Made by a program: the position numbers and the translations under genes. Positions 58,666 through 63,449 of a stretch of DNA of 64,000 nucleotides are shown here, piece by piece. Position 1 is the stretch's first letter; each line of letters opens with the position of its first letter. The stretch comes from a virus, in IMG/VR virus record IMGVR_UViG_3300020180_000010, positions 60,348 to 124,347 of that record; one strand, 5' to 3'. A model generated the notes under the pieces. That model saw only the letters and a program-made list of their open reading frames with translations. It did no database searches and was not told the origin of the DNA.

Positions 58666-59502
58666 TTATGGAATTGTGATTTCTAACTCTGGCTTTGCAA
58701 AAAATCCATCAACAATTTGATTCGTCATATCCTCATCTGAAACTTGCGAAACATTATCAGCTCGTTTTACCTGTAAATCCGGCTCAACACCTTGACTGAC
58801 CAATTTATCCTGAATGGTAATGGTGACGCTTCTCTGGACTTCAGGGTTTTCTTTACTAGCCTTTACATCACCAAAAAGCTTCTCAATCAATGGATCAGAT
58901 GATTTTTGTAAATTATTCTGAACCGGCGCACTATTCTTACTGATCCCGCCAAGATTATAATTTGCATAAATTGTTTTATGCAGCAAACGCTCATCTCGAT
59001 CAATAATTAATTGTCTAAGTTCTTTCTGGTCTAATTTTTCAATATCTTCCGGTCGTAAACGATAACGAAGATAAAGTAATTCTTCAAGATAATTTAATTG
59101 TGGTTTAAAGAAATCAAAATCTTTTTGTTCTATCCTGAGTGTACTGTTGAGTGTCGCGGATAAAATTCTACAATAACTATCCAGCCAATCCGGGTCTCCA
59201 TTAAAATCTTCTTTTATCGCATCCACGACTGATTTTAATTTGAAAAATGTTTTGATCTTATCAGATGAATCTTTATCAATGAATGGTTCTGACCGATGAT
59301 AATTTTGTAGATTACGACGAGGATTTATTTGTGTTTCTTGATCAAATCTTCTTGTGTCGAAAGCAACCTTTATGATTTCACCTTTGGATGACACTGCATT
59401 CTTTATATGATTGATTCGCAAAGAACGAGCGGCGTCACGAGTCTGATCATCACGATTCAGGGCGTTTAGTATTTCATAAGTATATGCGTATAATTTAATC
59501 AC
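58666..59502 (-). CDS. Uncharacterised head/neck-region protein (278 aa)
   Basis: Mostly helical and charged. Notable segments are the N-terminal YAYTYEILNALNRDDQTRD and the helix LNYLEELLYLRYRLRPEDIE. The GTG start at 59502 overlaps the end of the metalloprotease gene by eight bases. The charged C terminus (about 200-278) looks flexible. The family was not recognised. Its place in the head-proximal block suggests a connector or assembly role. Confidence 0.5.
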   Translation of the reverse strand: MIKLYAYTYEILNALNRDDQTRDAARSLRINHIKNAVSSKGEIIKVAFDTRRFDQETQINPRRNLQNYHRSEPFIDKDSSDKIKTFFKLKSVVDAIKEDFNGDPDWLDSYCRILSATLNSTLRIEQKDFDFFKPQLNYLEELLYLRYRLRPEDIEKLDQKELRQLIIDRDERLLHKTIYANYNLGGISKNSAPVQNNLQKSSDPLIEKLFGDVKASKENPEVQRSVTITIQDKLVSQGVEPDLQVKRADNVSQVSDEDMTNQIVDGFFAKPELEITIP

Positions 59503-60238
59503 GACTGGTGTCTATATGTCTAGAAATGGGTTGTTCCGTACAATATGGAAACGTATCTACCTTACAATTAAATTTTTCACAAAACTGTTCCATATCAAAC
59601 CTAGTTATACAATTAAGTCCTGAATTTATAGAATTCATTACAGATCTATTGCCATCACGATGTACCAATCCTAATATATGTCCAAGCTCATGCAAAGCTA
59701 CTGACCTGAACTGTTTAGTGTTGGACATCCTACTCTGAACCAGTCCAATTCTAAAATTTTTCCAAGATTCATCTCTTTTCGCGAATCCTAAAACATTTAG
59801 TTTTTGTTTATAGATTGTAAGTGTCAAAGTATCCAGGTCAGTAATGATTGGGTCTGTATCCTGTACCACCTGTATAATGTTTCGATCCGGTGCAAATTCA
59901 GATGAACCGACATGCGAATAGGACCAGATCAGATTGAACTGAACTGTATTTACCGTGACTCGCTCCCATTCCTGAACTGCTTTTTGTAATTCAAGTAATT
60001 CTACAGATTCAAATCGGTAATCAACATATATTGTTGCGTTGAATACTGTATCGTTACTAACGGGCCACGTAACGGGCTGGACCGGAGCTGCCCGGATGAT
60101 TGGTATTTTAGCTTTTCTACTTCCTTCGCAAGATAAAGAAAAAACTACGATAGCGCAGAGTATTAGACAGGGAAGGAACTTCGTGAGAAGTTTATTCCAG
60201 ATTTTTCTTACGCCCCGTTGAAAGGCGAGACCCTGCAC
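59495..60238 (-). CDS. Secreted matrixin-type metalloprotease, lipoprotein-like
   Basis: Zinc motif HELGHILGLVH at residues 183-193 (ligands H183, H187, H193; catalytic E184) and a Met-turn SVMNS with M201. This is the metzincin pattern, closest to matrixins in spacing. Residues 11-37 form a basic then hydrophobic signal peptide ending in FSLSC37. C37 could be lipidated, although the -3 residue is not the usual Leu. Six further Cys from about 210 to 233 suggest an exported, disulfide-bonded protein. The start (GTG 60238) has no clear ribosome site, so the exact N terminus is uncertain. Exported proteases are rare in virion modules. Substrates cannot be inferred. Confidence 0.75.
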   Translation of the reverse strand: MQGLAFQRGVRKIWNKLLTKFLPCLILCAIVVFSLSCEGSRKAKIPIIRAAPVQPVTWPVSNDTVFNATIYVDYRFESVELLELQKAVQEWERVTVNTVQFNLIWSYSHVGSSEFAPDRNIIQVVQDTDPIITDLDTLTLTIYKQKLNVLGFAKRDESWKNFRIGLVQSRMSNTKQFRSVALHELGHILGLVHRDGNRSVMNSINSGLNCITRFDMEQFCEKFNCKVDTFPYCTEQPISRHIDTSRD

Positions 60239-60336: not shown

Positions 60337-61125
60337 TCAGCCAGCCAGTACTGACTTACGACCAGCAGAAACGCCGCGGGCATTCAGGATGCCGCAACCG
60401 ACGATTTCCGACACAACCCAGCCAAGCGACAGGCGCTTGGGTTCGTCTGCCGGAAGAACTTCGATGTCCTGCCGAACCGGCATGACTCCGACGAATTCCG
60501 GATCCGCGCACGCAAACACCGTTCCCGGGGGAACGATCTTGCTTACGATGATATCCGCGCCCCAGATGTGAGCATAAAGCCCCGTCTGGAGAACTTCACG
60601 CTGCGAAACTGGATCAAGCTCGCCACCACCAACGCCCTGACCACCACCCGAACCCCACTTGAGGATATCGGTAAATTCATTGATGTTCATGAAGTACTTG
60701 GTCGTTACGAGGTCCCAACGATCAACCTGAACTTTCAGCTCAAGGAGGTCGCGTTTGAGAAGACCCGCGTCCGTAACGTCCTGAACGGTGTTTTCCACCG
60801 AAGCGGCTGAATCAAGCGCTGCGAAGACGTTCGCGTCTTCCTGAGCCATGATTTCCTGACGTGCCTTCTGAACCGCACGATCAATCACGTTGAACCGACG
60901 ACGCCGGACTTCCGCAATACGAACCGTGGGGTTGGATACGATTTCGAATTCCGGAACAACAACGCGATCACCGAATACACGGCTCTCCGGCGCTGAACCG
61001 TTGCTCGAAACAACTACCGCCGCGACATCAATATCACGGTCATACGTCGGTAGAGCGCCCTGCGGCAACATGTCTACAACAAGGGCTCTACGTGCCACCC
61101 CGTGGTAATCTAAATTTCTTCGGAT
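60337..61125 (-). CDS. Major capsid protein, exon 2 (262 aa of 334)
   Basis: HK97-fold major capsid protein. Joined to exon 1 (62338-62553) it encodes 334 residues. The junction reads AAC CCT | ATC CGA AGA, giving ANPIRRNLDYHGVARR. Recognisable parts are RRALVVDMLPQGALPTYDRD (early strand and P-loop region), a spine-helix segment (NVIDRAVQKARQEIMAQEDA), and the conserved late block GLYAHIWGADIIVSKIVPPG ending in GILNARGVSAG. The C terminus is complete. The frame from TTG 61128 is not the true start. Confidence 0.88.
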   Translation of the reverse strand: MRRNLDYHGVARRALVVDMLPQGALPTYDRDIDVAAVVVSSNGSAPESRVFGDRVVVPEFEIVSNPTVRIAEVRRRRFNVIDRAVQKARQEIMAQEDANVFAALDSAASVENTVQDVTDAGLLKRDLLELKVQVDRWDLVTTKYFMNINEFTDILKWGSGGGQGVGGGELDPVSQREVLQTGLYAHIWGADIIVSKIVPPGTVFACADPEFVGVMPVRQDIEVLPADEPKRLSLGWVVSEIVGCGILNARGVSAGRKSVLAG

Positions 61126-62337
61126 CAAATTTGTTATCGCGCTTTGGGTTACCCGTTCGGCGCTTCTTTACTTCTCAGTAAAGTTCAGAATACATCATCA
61201 TCCAATGATTGAATAATCAATCTATCGGCGTTTGGCATCTACTCGTTGAGGATTCTGGCATGAGTTTATATTTCATAGAATCAATTACATGCGGCCTGAT
61301 AATATCAGATAACTTTTGTGTATTTTCTTTATTTAAAGTTATTTGATAATATTTTTTACCTTTGTAATTAAAAATCATCACTTTAGAATTTAAATCAAAA
61401 CATGATTTTAAATAATCTCTAAGTAGATAATTTTCTGATTCTGTAAAACCCATTGAAGCGATTCTCATGTTTACTTTTGCATTTAGATTACCGTCATCCT
61501 GTATCCATACTGCTAGTGATAAGGGTGTTAGGTACATATCTAAATTTTTAGGAACATGTTTAACTCTATTTTCATCATAAAACATTTTGCCAAAAAAATT
61601 CAAATCTTGATGGCAAATCGTGGTAGTTTGAAACATAGTTGAATTTCTGGTTTTATTAACACTTTTATTAAAAGTATTAATAAACGGATCCAGCATTGCA
61701 ACCTTCCAATGAAAATATTGTTCTTGCGCTTCACAGTGACCAAACGAAAATTTAAAGTTACCTTTAGTTGAATCTTTATAAAGACAACCGTCTCCAAGCA
61801 TTCCTCCTACAATCAGTTGCTTTTGAACTGAGTTAAGTGGTACTTGTCGTAAAATATCATATTTACGAAGATTCGAAATTACTACTCTGTTGTGAGCTTT
61901 TAGTAATTTTGATAGAGAGGGTCCGGATATTTCATACCATTTGGACAATGATTTTATTGTTTCGCCATTATCAAATTTATTAATAATATCATTTACCTGA
62001 TCAGGTGTCAGGTCCGAAATATAATTTCTTGTCCATTTTACTTTAGCAGCTTTGAGAATTTTTCTTACTGTTTCGTAACTTTTATCAAGTCGTTCAGCAA
62101 TTTCTCTAACTGTTAATCCAGTCTCATAAAGAATTTTAATTTCTTCGTTTGTCACTTGCCAGTCTTTCCTGCTGATTGTCTATATCATCCATCTTCTGTT
62201 ACTATAACGATTCCGTTTCCGGATAGACTAGCTGCGATGCGTAGCCTTTAGAGTGTTATAGTGAGATGGCTTTTAGAGTTTCCAGCATATGGCCAAATTC
62301 ACATCCCATAATTACTTACGGGAGCCCCTATCCATTA
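61126..62337 (-). mobile_element. Group I intron in the major capsid gene
   Basis: A 1212-base intervening sequence. The 5' exon ends ACCCT and pairs with AGGGG in the intron (P1, with the expected U-G at the cut). The adjacent intron bases GGAT pair with ATCC at the start of exon 2 (P10). The intron ends in G (base 61126). A P2-like hairpin (CCCGTAA, loop GTAA, TTATGGG) follows P1. A possible P7 is GTCTAT with ATAGAC. Near the 3' end there are a TTTACT-GAGA-AGTAAA hairpin (61167-61182) and a GCGC/GCGC hairpin (61139-61163). These features and the open exon frames make self-splicing likely. The core lies in about 62156-62337; the endonuclease gene fills most of the rest. Confidence 0.85.
61217..62155 (-). 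CDS. LAGLIDADG homing endonuclease (intron-encoded)
   Basis: A 312-residue protein starting at GTG 62155, with AGGAAAG eight bases upstream inside the intron core. It has two helix-turn-helix-like segments at the N terminus (LTVREIAERLDKSYETVRKI at 14-33, and IKSLSKWYEISGPSLSKLLK near 64-83). Two LAGLIDADG-type helices follow (VQKQLIVGGMLGDGCL near 112-127, and LSLAVWIQDDGNL near 215-227). The acidic residues of both motifs are present, so the enzyme is probably active. Such enzymes cut the intron-free capsid gene and spread the intron by repair. Lys/Asn-rich, AT-rich codons contrast with the capsid exons. Confidence 0.88.
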   Translation of the reverse strand: MTNEEIKILYETGLTVREIAERLDKSYETVRKILKAAKVKWTRNYISDLTPDQVNDIINKFDNGETIKSLSKWYEISGPSLSKLLKAHNRVVISNLRKYDILRQVPLNSVQKQLIVGGMLGDGCLYKDSTKGNFKFSFGHCEAQEQYFHWKVAMLDPFINTFNKSVNKTRNSTMFQTTTICHQDLNFFGKMFYDENRVKHVPKNLDMYLTPLSLAVWIQDDGNLNAKVNMRIASMGFTESENYLLRDYLKSCFDLNSKVMIFNYKGKKYYQITLNKENTQKLSDIIRPHVIDSMKYKLMPESSTSRCQTPID

Positions 62338-62553
62338 AGGGTTTGCCATTGACTGCGCGAGGGCGATTTTACCGTCCTGCGTCAAAATGGCTCGTGAAAT
62401 CAAAGTGTCACGGGCATCGTCCGTCATGGACCCGGCAAGTGACGTGTTTGATGGCTGATTTTCTTCCAGTACTGATGCGTACTTTGCGACCACCGATAGT
62501 GCGTCGCGGAGTGAACTCGCGTTGATTTCACCCTTGTTGTTAAACAAAGACAT
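62338..62553 (-). CDS. Major capsid protein, exon 1 (72 aa)
   Basis: ATG at 62553 with AAAAGGAAA upstream. It encodes a polar N-terminal helix region (SSLRDALSVVAKYASVLEEN), then SRAILTQDGKIALAQSMANP at the splice site. Without splicing the frame meets TAA at once, so only a short peptide would be made. The sequence reads straight into exon 2. Confidence 0.85.
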
Positions 62554-62771: not shown

Positions 62772-63449
62772 TTACTTGCCGAGCCAGTGGAACACGGCCA
62801 TGGTGAATCGCAGCTGCTCACCGAGTGAGCCTGACGGTGAATTAAGCGCCGAAGCGAGGTAATTCGGAGTCGTGACGAGAGACCCGTCAGTCGTGAATTC
62901 AACGAACCGTGCCATGATCGCACCACCGTTTGCAGTACCGGCGCCTGAGTTTGGAGTCAGAAGACCCGCTGGCGAGACATACAGTGCATCCGCAACCGTA
63001 AGGGTTGAGTTGGTGGGCTGGAGACCCGTGGATGCCGTGGTATCGCATGCATCCAGCGTAACTCCATAAAGGCCCGCACGATTCCAACAAGTAACCTTGC
63101 CAGAACCCGTTGCCGTGTGCGGACCAAGCTGCGCGCCACCCGTCACAACCATACCGGCCGTGCCACCGACTACGCTACCGAAAAGGGTACCGTAACCAGT
63201 CGTACCTTCGTCAGAGAGCCAATACGGACCCGCTGCGCCCGTGCCGAGTGTTGATGTTACGGCGGGACGACGCTTCGTGGTCGTACCGGCGTAACCGTCA
63301 TCAATGTCCGAAGCGTGTTTGTCAGTTGCCTGATCCAAAGCAACGCCAACGAGCGTGACGACTTCGCCACCCTTCATCGCAGTAACCTGTGAATCAAGAC
63401 CGTCAAACTGGCCAAGTGGATGAATATCTGATTGAAGAACTTTTAACAT
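62772..63449 (-). CDS. Probable capsid decoration / head protein (225 aa)
   Basis: Directly upstream of the major capsid gene. Beta-rich throughout: VTAMKGGEVVTLVGVALDQA, then GAAGPYWLSDEGTTGYGTLF, and CWNRAGLYGVTLDACDTTAS. It has a final VADALYVSPAGLLTPNSGAG segment as in proteins encoded beside capsid genes in other myoviruses. AAAAGGAAA precedes ATG 63449. Its own tandem terminators fit a high-copy product. One DGY triplet is present. Confidence 0.65.
   Translation of the reverse strand: MLKVLQSDIHPLGQFDGLDSQVTAMKGGEVVTLVGVALDQATDKHASDIDDGYAGTTTKRRPAVTSTLGTGAAGPYWLSDEGTTGYGTLFGSVVGGTAGMVVTGGAQLGPHTATGSGKVTCWNRAGLYGVTLDACDTTASTGLQPTNSTLTVADALYVSPAGLLTPNSGAGTANGGAIMARFVEFTTDGSLVTTPNYLASALNSPSGSLGEQLRFTMAVFHWLGK

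Follow-up and report, generated by a model that had tools for sequence, protein, structure and literature searches.

A predicted group I intron with a LAGLIDADG endonuclease frame splits the major capsid gene of a putative relative of Bacillus phage G, in a clade where this gene is an intron hotspot

Two reading frames that together resemble a phage major capsid protein (MCP) are separated at this locus by a 1212-nt insert carrying a frame of its own, which raises the question of whether the insert is an intron removed from the RNA and, if so, how it came to lie in this gene. The window, as we call the whole 64,000-nt stretch of DNA analysed, comprises bases 60348-124347 of a 124347-bp metagenome virus record. 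The locus is on its minus strand, where the gene is laid out as follows.

62553..62338, minus strand: MCP exon 1, 216 nt, codons 1-72, an open frame ending GCA AAC CCT (ANP)
62337..61126, minus strand: predicted group I intron, 1212 nt, starting TAATGG, with the terminal omega-G at 61126
61125..60337, minus strand: MCP exon 2, codons 73-334 plus the stop, starting ATC CGA (IRR)

When the two exons were joined at the predicted spliced junction, which reads CAAACCCT on the exon 1 side and ATCCGAAG on the exon 2 side, an open frame of 334 amino acids followed by a stop was obtained. The insert itself opens with a TAA stop in the frame of exon 1, so exon 1 is not read through. The PHROG 2522 profile (major head protein) matched the exon 1 ORF weakly over columns 10-67 (E 0.025) and the exon 2 ORF over columns 68-317 (E 1.1e-65), and thus picks up at the predicted junction. 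An automatic junction finder, which required a U at the exon end, a G at the intron end and capsid continuity, returned the same junction as the original prediction. Because the finder demanded the U and the G, pairing of the internal guide with the exons is the independent part of the splice-site test. A splice site at 74.67, the position assigned to sister introns (site numbers give the residue in the L057 protein plus the codon fraction), was also considered for the window and rejected, since the AT that it requires is missing from the window exon.

The joined protein aligned with gp27 of Bacillus phage G (PDB 6wkk; E 4.9e-92) over query residues 43-324 with no gap at the junction, where the 6wkk chain reads GRVALAQAMANPIRVSLDYQG. 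The continuous capsid protein of 334 residues that had been predicted is borne out by this alignment and by the open joined frame. Judged by sequence similarity, the interrupted gene is an MCP gene of the phage G gp27/PHROG 2522 type and the virus that carries it is a relative of Bacillus phage G. The label HK97-type given in the original prediction depends on membership of the gp27/PHROG 2522 family, the fold being the one expected from homology (the AlphaFold model of a capsid relative, L006, had a mean pLDDT of 39). The ORF directly 3' of the capsid gene (59498-60238) has a matrixin-like metallopeptidase match (Peptidase_M10, E 1.5e-7). Upstream of the gene, the ORF at 62775-63449 gave no Pfam or PHROG match; it occupies the place of the phage G capsid decoration gene gp26 and may encode a decoration protein.

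Intron-free relatives were sought by searching IMG/VR with exon 2. Among the best 80 of 337 relatives, the frame was continuous in 76, reading ALAQAMANP/IRRNLDY or a close variant across the junction (in L042 and L044, both counted here, the contig ends further upstream); of the other four, L002-L004 carry the window's own intron and L078 a homologous one. Contiguity of ANP and IRR in homologues, on which the prediction had been staked, was thus found in these 76 and in phage G gp27. As the window belongs to a metagenome record of 124347 bases, an endonuclease contig might have been fused into the capsid gene during assembly. However, the window intron was also present with identical junctions in four IMG/VR contigs bearing four different IMG sample numbers (L002, L003, L004 and L083, the last retrieved through the endonuclease search), and homologous introns interrupted this gene in many other contigs, which makes an assembly artefact extremely improbable. 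Over 2.8-3.5 kb, L002-L004 matched the window at 99.8-99.9% identity.

If the insert is a group I intron, its internal guide should pair with both exons. The guide elements were read as follows.

62333..62325, minus strand: internal guide GGATAGGGG, read from the sequence
62333-62330, minus strand: P10 side of the guide, GGAU, pairing with AUCC of exon 2
62328-62325, minus strand: P1 side of the guide, GGGG, pairing with CCCU, with U.G at the cut

Both pairings that had been claimed were found, GGGG with CCCU and GGAU with AUCC, and a single unpaired A separates the P1 and P10 parts of the guide. P1 was drawn by eye as CCCUUA/UAGGGG and contains four exon pairs only. Across 36 distinct introns, guides paired with their own flanks at a mean of 9.28 of 10 positions, compared with 5.54 for guides from other sites (ungapped count), and pairing at 9 or more of 10 positions was reached by 28 of the 36 real introns but by 1.2% of shuffled targets in a search-matched control. 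Before this count, we dropped composite or unresolved gaps (L087/L166, first; L091/L149; L135, second; L138, second; L142, first; L145; L148; L152/L162, second), junctions judged to be due to chance (L141 at 311.67, L181, L207 and L216) and duplicates. The window guide scored 6 of 10 in the ungapped count, the lowest among the 36 introns, and guides from other sites reached up to 7 against the window flanks. This low score arises because P10 is displaced by one base; with the offset allowed, the window guide makes four P1 and four P10 pairs. The finder, the PHROG 2522 profile and the guide pairing therefore agree on the base-level splice sites first proposed, and re-reading of the sequence found the letters and coordinates given for the exons, the 1212-nt insert, the guide and the final G to be correct.

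We then examined the ribozyme core, for which the following helices were assigned; the cell and pair counts come from an alignment of 23 introns.

62305..62322, minus strand: P2, CCCGUAA/UUAUGGG, drawn by eye and outside the covariation count
62292..62297 / 61236-61231, minus strand: P3, UUUGGC/GCCAAA, 137/138 cells paired (99%), two-sided changes in 4/6 pairs
62283..62287 / 62174-62170, minus strand: P4, UGCUG/CAGCA, 115/115 cells paired (100%), invariant
62179..62277, minus strand: P5 with a P5a, P5b and P5c extension, two-sided changes in 2/4 pairs of P5, 6/6 of P5a, 5/8 of P5b and 5/6 of P5c
61240..61244 / 61192-61188, minus strand: P7, GAGUA/UAUUC, 95% paired, two-sided changes in 2/5 pairs
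61166..61183, minus strand: P9, CUUUACU/AGUAAAG, 161/161 cells paired (100%), two-sided changes in 5/7 pairs
61139..61163, minus strand: P9.1-like stem, GCGC..GCGC with inner GGGU/ACCC, drawn by eye

Eleven core helices of a structure drawn by eye from the window were tested on a MAFFT alignment of these 23 introns with the ORF removed; the remaining 13 of the 36 introns were outside the helix count, 12 of them because a regular expression failed to find a core motif and one (L137) because of a long insert. Over the 23 introns, 1186 of 1340 cells were paired (88.5%), compared with 31.9-46.1% when one strand was slid by 1-3 columns, part of this contrast being expected, since the window itself had served as the template for the structure. 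The two-sided changes are stronger evidence for the core than this contrast. P6 was 100% paired, and P6a and P8 were paired in 59% of cells, in regions of variable length that align poorly. The middle pair of P7 is G.U in the window and C-G in the other 22 introns, so that both sides have changed with pairing kept as a wobble. The helices by which a group I core is recognised (P3, P4, P6, P7 and P9) are thus conserved with covariation. The core pattern ATGCTGGAAACTC-N(95-125)-GACAATCAGCAG matched once in the window and in none of 100 shuffles, and over the whole record there was one core-pattern match and one LAGLIDADG_2 match, both at this intron. Taken together with the guide pairing and the terminal G, the covariation over 23 introns upholds the group I assignment, and the intron in the window's MCP gene is very probably of group I, with splicing predicted. 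Separately, the exact P4/Q core pattern was seen in 22 bacterial contig stretches (L102-L123), including Patescibacteria, Pectinatus brassicae and a Coxiella endosymbiont.

A covariance-model search, which had been suggested as a check, gave a divided answer. Rfam at gathering score yielded no match over the whole window, and RF00028 none over the whole 124-kb record; the window intron scored 17.2 and 15.0 bits against RF00028 in two pieces, below the gathering cut-off of 50. We attribute this miss to the 939-nt ORF in P6a; since such an ORF defeats it, the cut-off is a detection threshold and not a defining property. ORF-less introns in the MCP genes of relatives gave nine matches (L087 twice, L151, L161, L163, L152 twice and L162 twice) that passed the same cut-off with 71.7-82.1 bits. 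At E<=0.05, by contrast, RF00028 failed to match the introns of L220 and L139 (262 and 291 nt), which are ORF-less as well. Of 15 RF00028 matches at E<=0.1 in ten long contigs (2.46 Mb), coordinate arithmetic placed 13 within the MCP gene span and two elsewhere. Outside the MCP gene, RF00028 matched above the cut-off in two phage contigs, L239 (1621-1815, minus strand, 52.1 bits) and L240 (1639-1844, plus strand, 59.9 bits).

The frame inside the intron points to the enzyme with which it might move.

62155..61217, minus strand: putative LAGLIDADG homing endonuclease ORF, GTG start, 312 aa, 939 nt

This ORF sits in the P6a loop and ends within the P3/P7/P8 region. Its product matched PF03161 (LAGLIDADG_2, E 1.6e-32) and has an N-terminal helix-turn-helix (HTH_23, E 1.8e-6). 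The best matches among solved structures were I-SceI entries (E 1.6e-8, ORF residues 104-300 aligned), and both acidic motifs align to those of I-SceI at D122 and D221, so two motifs are present. The protein is probably an I-SceI-like LAGLIDADG homing endonuclease and, to judge from the behaviour of its family, would cut and home. The GTG is preceded, inside P6, by a purine-rich AGGAAAG, and the frame ends with codons in P7/P3/P8; the same RNA would therefore serve both enzyme translation and ribozyme folding. In related introns, the longest frames exceed 300 aa in some, are shortened in others (210 aa in L131, for example) and reach about 30 aa where the intron is ORF-less. This range fits the model in which homing introns go through a cycle of gain, decay and loss.

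LAGLIDADG endonucleases are also typical of inteins, and the presence of one here would suit an intein or another in-frame insert removed from the protein. Such an insert is nevertheless hard to reconcile with the TAA immediately after exon 1 and with an ORF that lies in a different frame and has its own start, and we rejected it on these grounds; the conservation of the RNA core through compensatory change likewise speaks against it and leaves it with hardly any probability.

Based on these data, we propose that the transcript would fold into a ribozyme in which guanosine attacks after CCCU at the U.G pair of P1. The freed exon 1 would then attack after the omega-G at 61126 while P10 holds AUCC of exon 2, so that the codons of Pro72 and Ile73 are joined. 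Translation of unspliced RNA from the GTG at 62155 would supply the endonuclease. Capsid alleles without the intron would be cut by it close to the joined site, and their repair would copy the intron in. Sequence and comparison show the structure, the junction and that the acidic motifs are intact, and splicing, cutting and homing are expected from the behaviour of the families concerned; we estimate the probability of the whole explanation at about 0.9. The window ribozyme could be slower or damaged, given its weak P1, offset P10 and the wobble in the middle P7 pair, and these features would also suit a former group I intron that has lost splicing, exon 1 and exon 2 then each encoding a separate capsid polypeptide. 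A TTG at 61128 in the exon 2 ORF adds to that case, as does the NrdA gene of Aeromonas phage Aeh1, described in the accessible text as having a non-splicing intron with both halves working (PMC7344957). On the other hand, P7 is altered on both sides and yet pairs, the intron and its open endonuclease frame are kept in four other contigs, and the requirement for capsid protein in each virion leaves little room for loss. We consider loss of splicing unlikely and retain the spliced intron as the preferred reading.

To place the window intron among its relatives, introns were mapped across IMG/VR. A relaxed core pattern found 49 stretches, 40 of them in loci also carrying this MCP gene, a proportion that is no unbiased share for phage introns generally, as the pattern was shaped on this intron family. 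Ten insertion sites were resolved by capsid continuity and guide pairing (70.67, 74.00, 74.67, 76.00, 77.00, 82.00, 93.33, 163.00, 165.67 and 246.67), seven of which fall in residues 70-94. Site 74.00 is occupied by the window-type intron alone and precedes the common site 74.67 by two bases; sites 74.00, 82.00, 163.00 and 165.67 are represented by one distinct intron each. A census was made by scanning for a capsid codon motif, with loci not chosen by intron and near-identical contigs counted separately. At least one intron-sized gap was present in 25 of the 91 MCP loci (two or more in 10 of the 25), 52 were intron-free across the whole or nearly the whole gene, 11 were edge-cut with no intron seen, and in 3 the cut falls within an apparent intron, which for L199 and L217 is visible in other loci of the same contig. 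L099 and L100, both counted among the 91, carry the window's intron. L087 contains three introns and a 12-nt microexon and, spliced in silico, gave an intact capsid protein; L091 contains two introns and a 16-nt microexon, with its 5' end cut by the HSP start. The MCP gene in this phage G-like clade is therefore an unusually dense intron hotspot; neither this hotspot nor the endonuclease frame figured in the original prediction. The insertion sites tend to fall in rather conserved DNA (mean consensus identity 0.880 versus 0.824; 1 of 20000 random draws as high, or 229 of 20000 with neighbouring sites merged to five clusters), which may partly explain their clustering.

Further LAGLIDADG matches were noted near these genes. 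L236 has two upstream of MCP exon 1 (1131-2617), besides two others in that gene's introns; the upstream pair perhaps marks introns in a neighbouring gene. Two LAGLIDADG-like matches lie 3' of a distant MCP relative in L092 (LR745208.1), a 485-kb uncultured phage record.

In a tree of 36 endonuclease proteins, the sequences clustered by insertion site (12 changes versus a shuffled mean of 20.5; 0 of 200 shuffles as low), with the sites of L087, L091, L135 (second) and L146 labelled by eye or by gap position. The clade containing the window enzyme mixes sites 74.00, 74.67 and 76.00 and two 93.33 rows, with support of 94/98, just under a star; bootstraps were not settled, and the window enzyme is placed only as far as this mixed-site clade. 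Our reading is that the introns spread by homing at cognate sites with occasional short-range site change. In a fuller version, taken as one joint reading to which we give slightly less than an even chance, a single I-SceI-like LAGLIDADG intron lineage radiated in the capsid gene to at least ten sites, the window intron (74.00) being a slide. The radiation would have proceeded partly by very short hops of 2 to about 60 nt, with the guide rewritten in a coordinated way and the enzyme specificity drifting. Neighbouring introns would exist side by side across microexons of 12-16 nt, each of which would pair in the P10 of one intron and in the P1 of the following one.

Capsid introns as such are already published, and the dense occupation of many sites in one capsid gene is a point for specialists. 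In mycobacteriophage LittleE (Cluster J), splicing of a capsid intron has been proven by RT-PCR and protein sequence, and the same paper cites the capsid intron of lactococcal phage Tuc2009 (PMC3706429). As far as the accessible text of that paper goes, LittleE resembles the window in having an MCP intron, a LAGLIDADG-related endonuclease, a U at the end of exon 1, a G at the intron end and sister phages with intron-free alleles, but its insertion is 819 bp, its endonuclease is on the opposite strand and its intron type is described as unclear, most likely group I (PMC3706429). In Delta and Zeta crAss-like phages, too, group I introns interrupt the MCP gene, which in one case is broken into five fragments; these are different phages, however, and the available text has the introns identified by endonuclease domains (PMC7886860). 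The claim that capsid introns are uncommon was thus only partly right, in view of these reports and of the 25 of 91 MCP loci in this clade.

Dense group I introns in large phages, several to a gene, are likewise described in the accessible parts of reports on the Jug phages (PMC12363816) and the Bastillevirinae (PMC11878797). Among the Jug phages, a genome contains 18.5 group I introns on average, and of 76 introns predicted, 37 had support for splicing (PMC12363816). Bastillevirinae introns are mostly in DNA polymerase genes and some in terminase genes, the word capsid being absent from the text available (PMC11878797). Unlike in the window clade, the host genes named there are terminase, nrdD and DNA polymerase (PMC12363816, PMC11878797). 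The PhiPA3 gp210 system also pairs an intron endonuclease with an essential jumbo-phage gene, and its model is the cutting of a rival's allele, but the target is the viral RNA polymerase gene and the portion of the paper at hand describes no capsid intron (PMC11620839). According to the available text of a 2014 review, the enzymes encoded in phage group I introns are mostly of the GIY-YIG, HNH and related types (PMC3984707), which makes a phage intron family with LAGLIDADG enzymes slightly unusual. We recognised no paper on MCP introns of phage G-like viruses in the open-access literature, which is weak evidence because subscription papers mostly lie outside it.

In surveys based on this capsid gene, a sizeable fraction of genes will be split or missed. 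If the window intron splices, each virion relies on the splicing of one transcript, and MCP genes interrupted one to three times or more therefore offer a strong natural test of phage ribozyme efficiency. Moreover, the clade holds introns at ten neighbouring sites, some of them two bases apart, with and without an endonuclease and beside intron-free alleles. Such variety makes the route by which introns reach new sites testable, with drift of the endonuclease set against reverse splicing with a change of guide.
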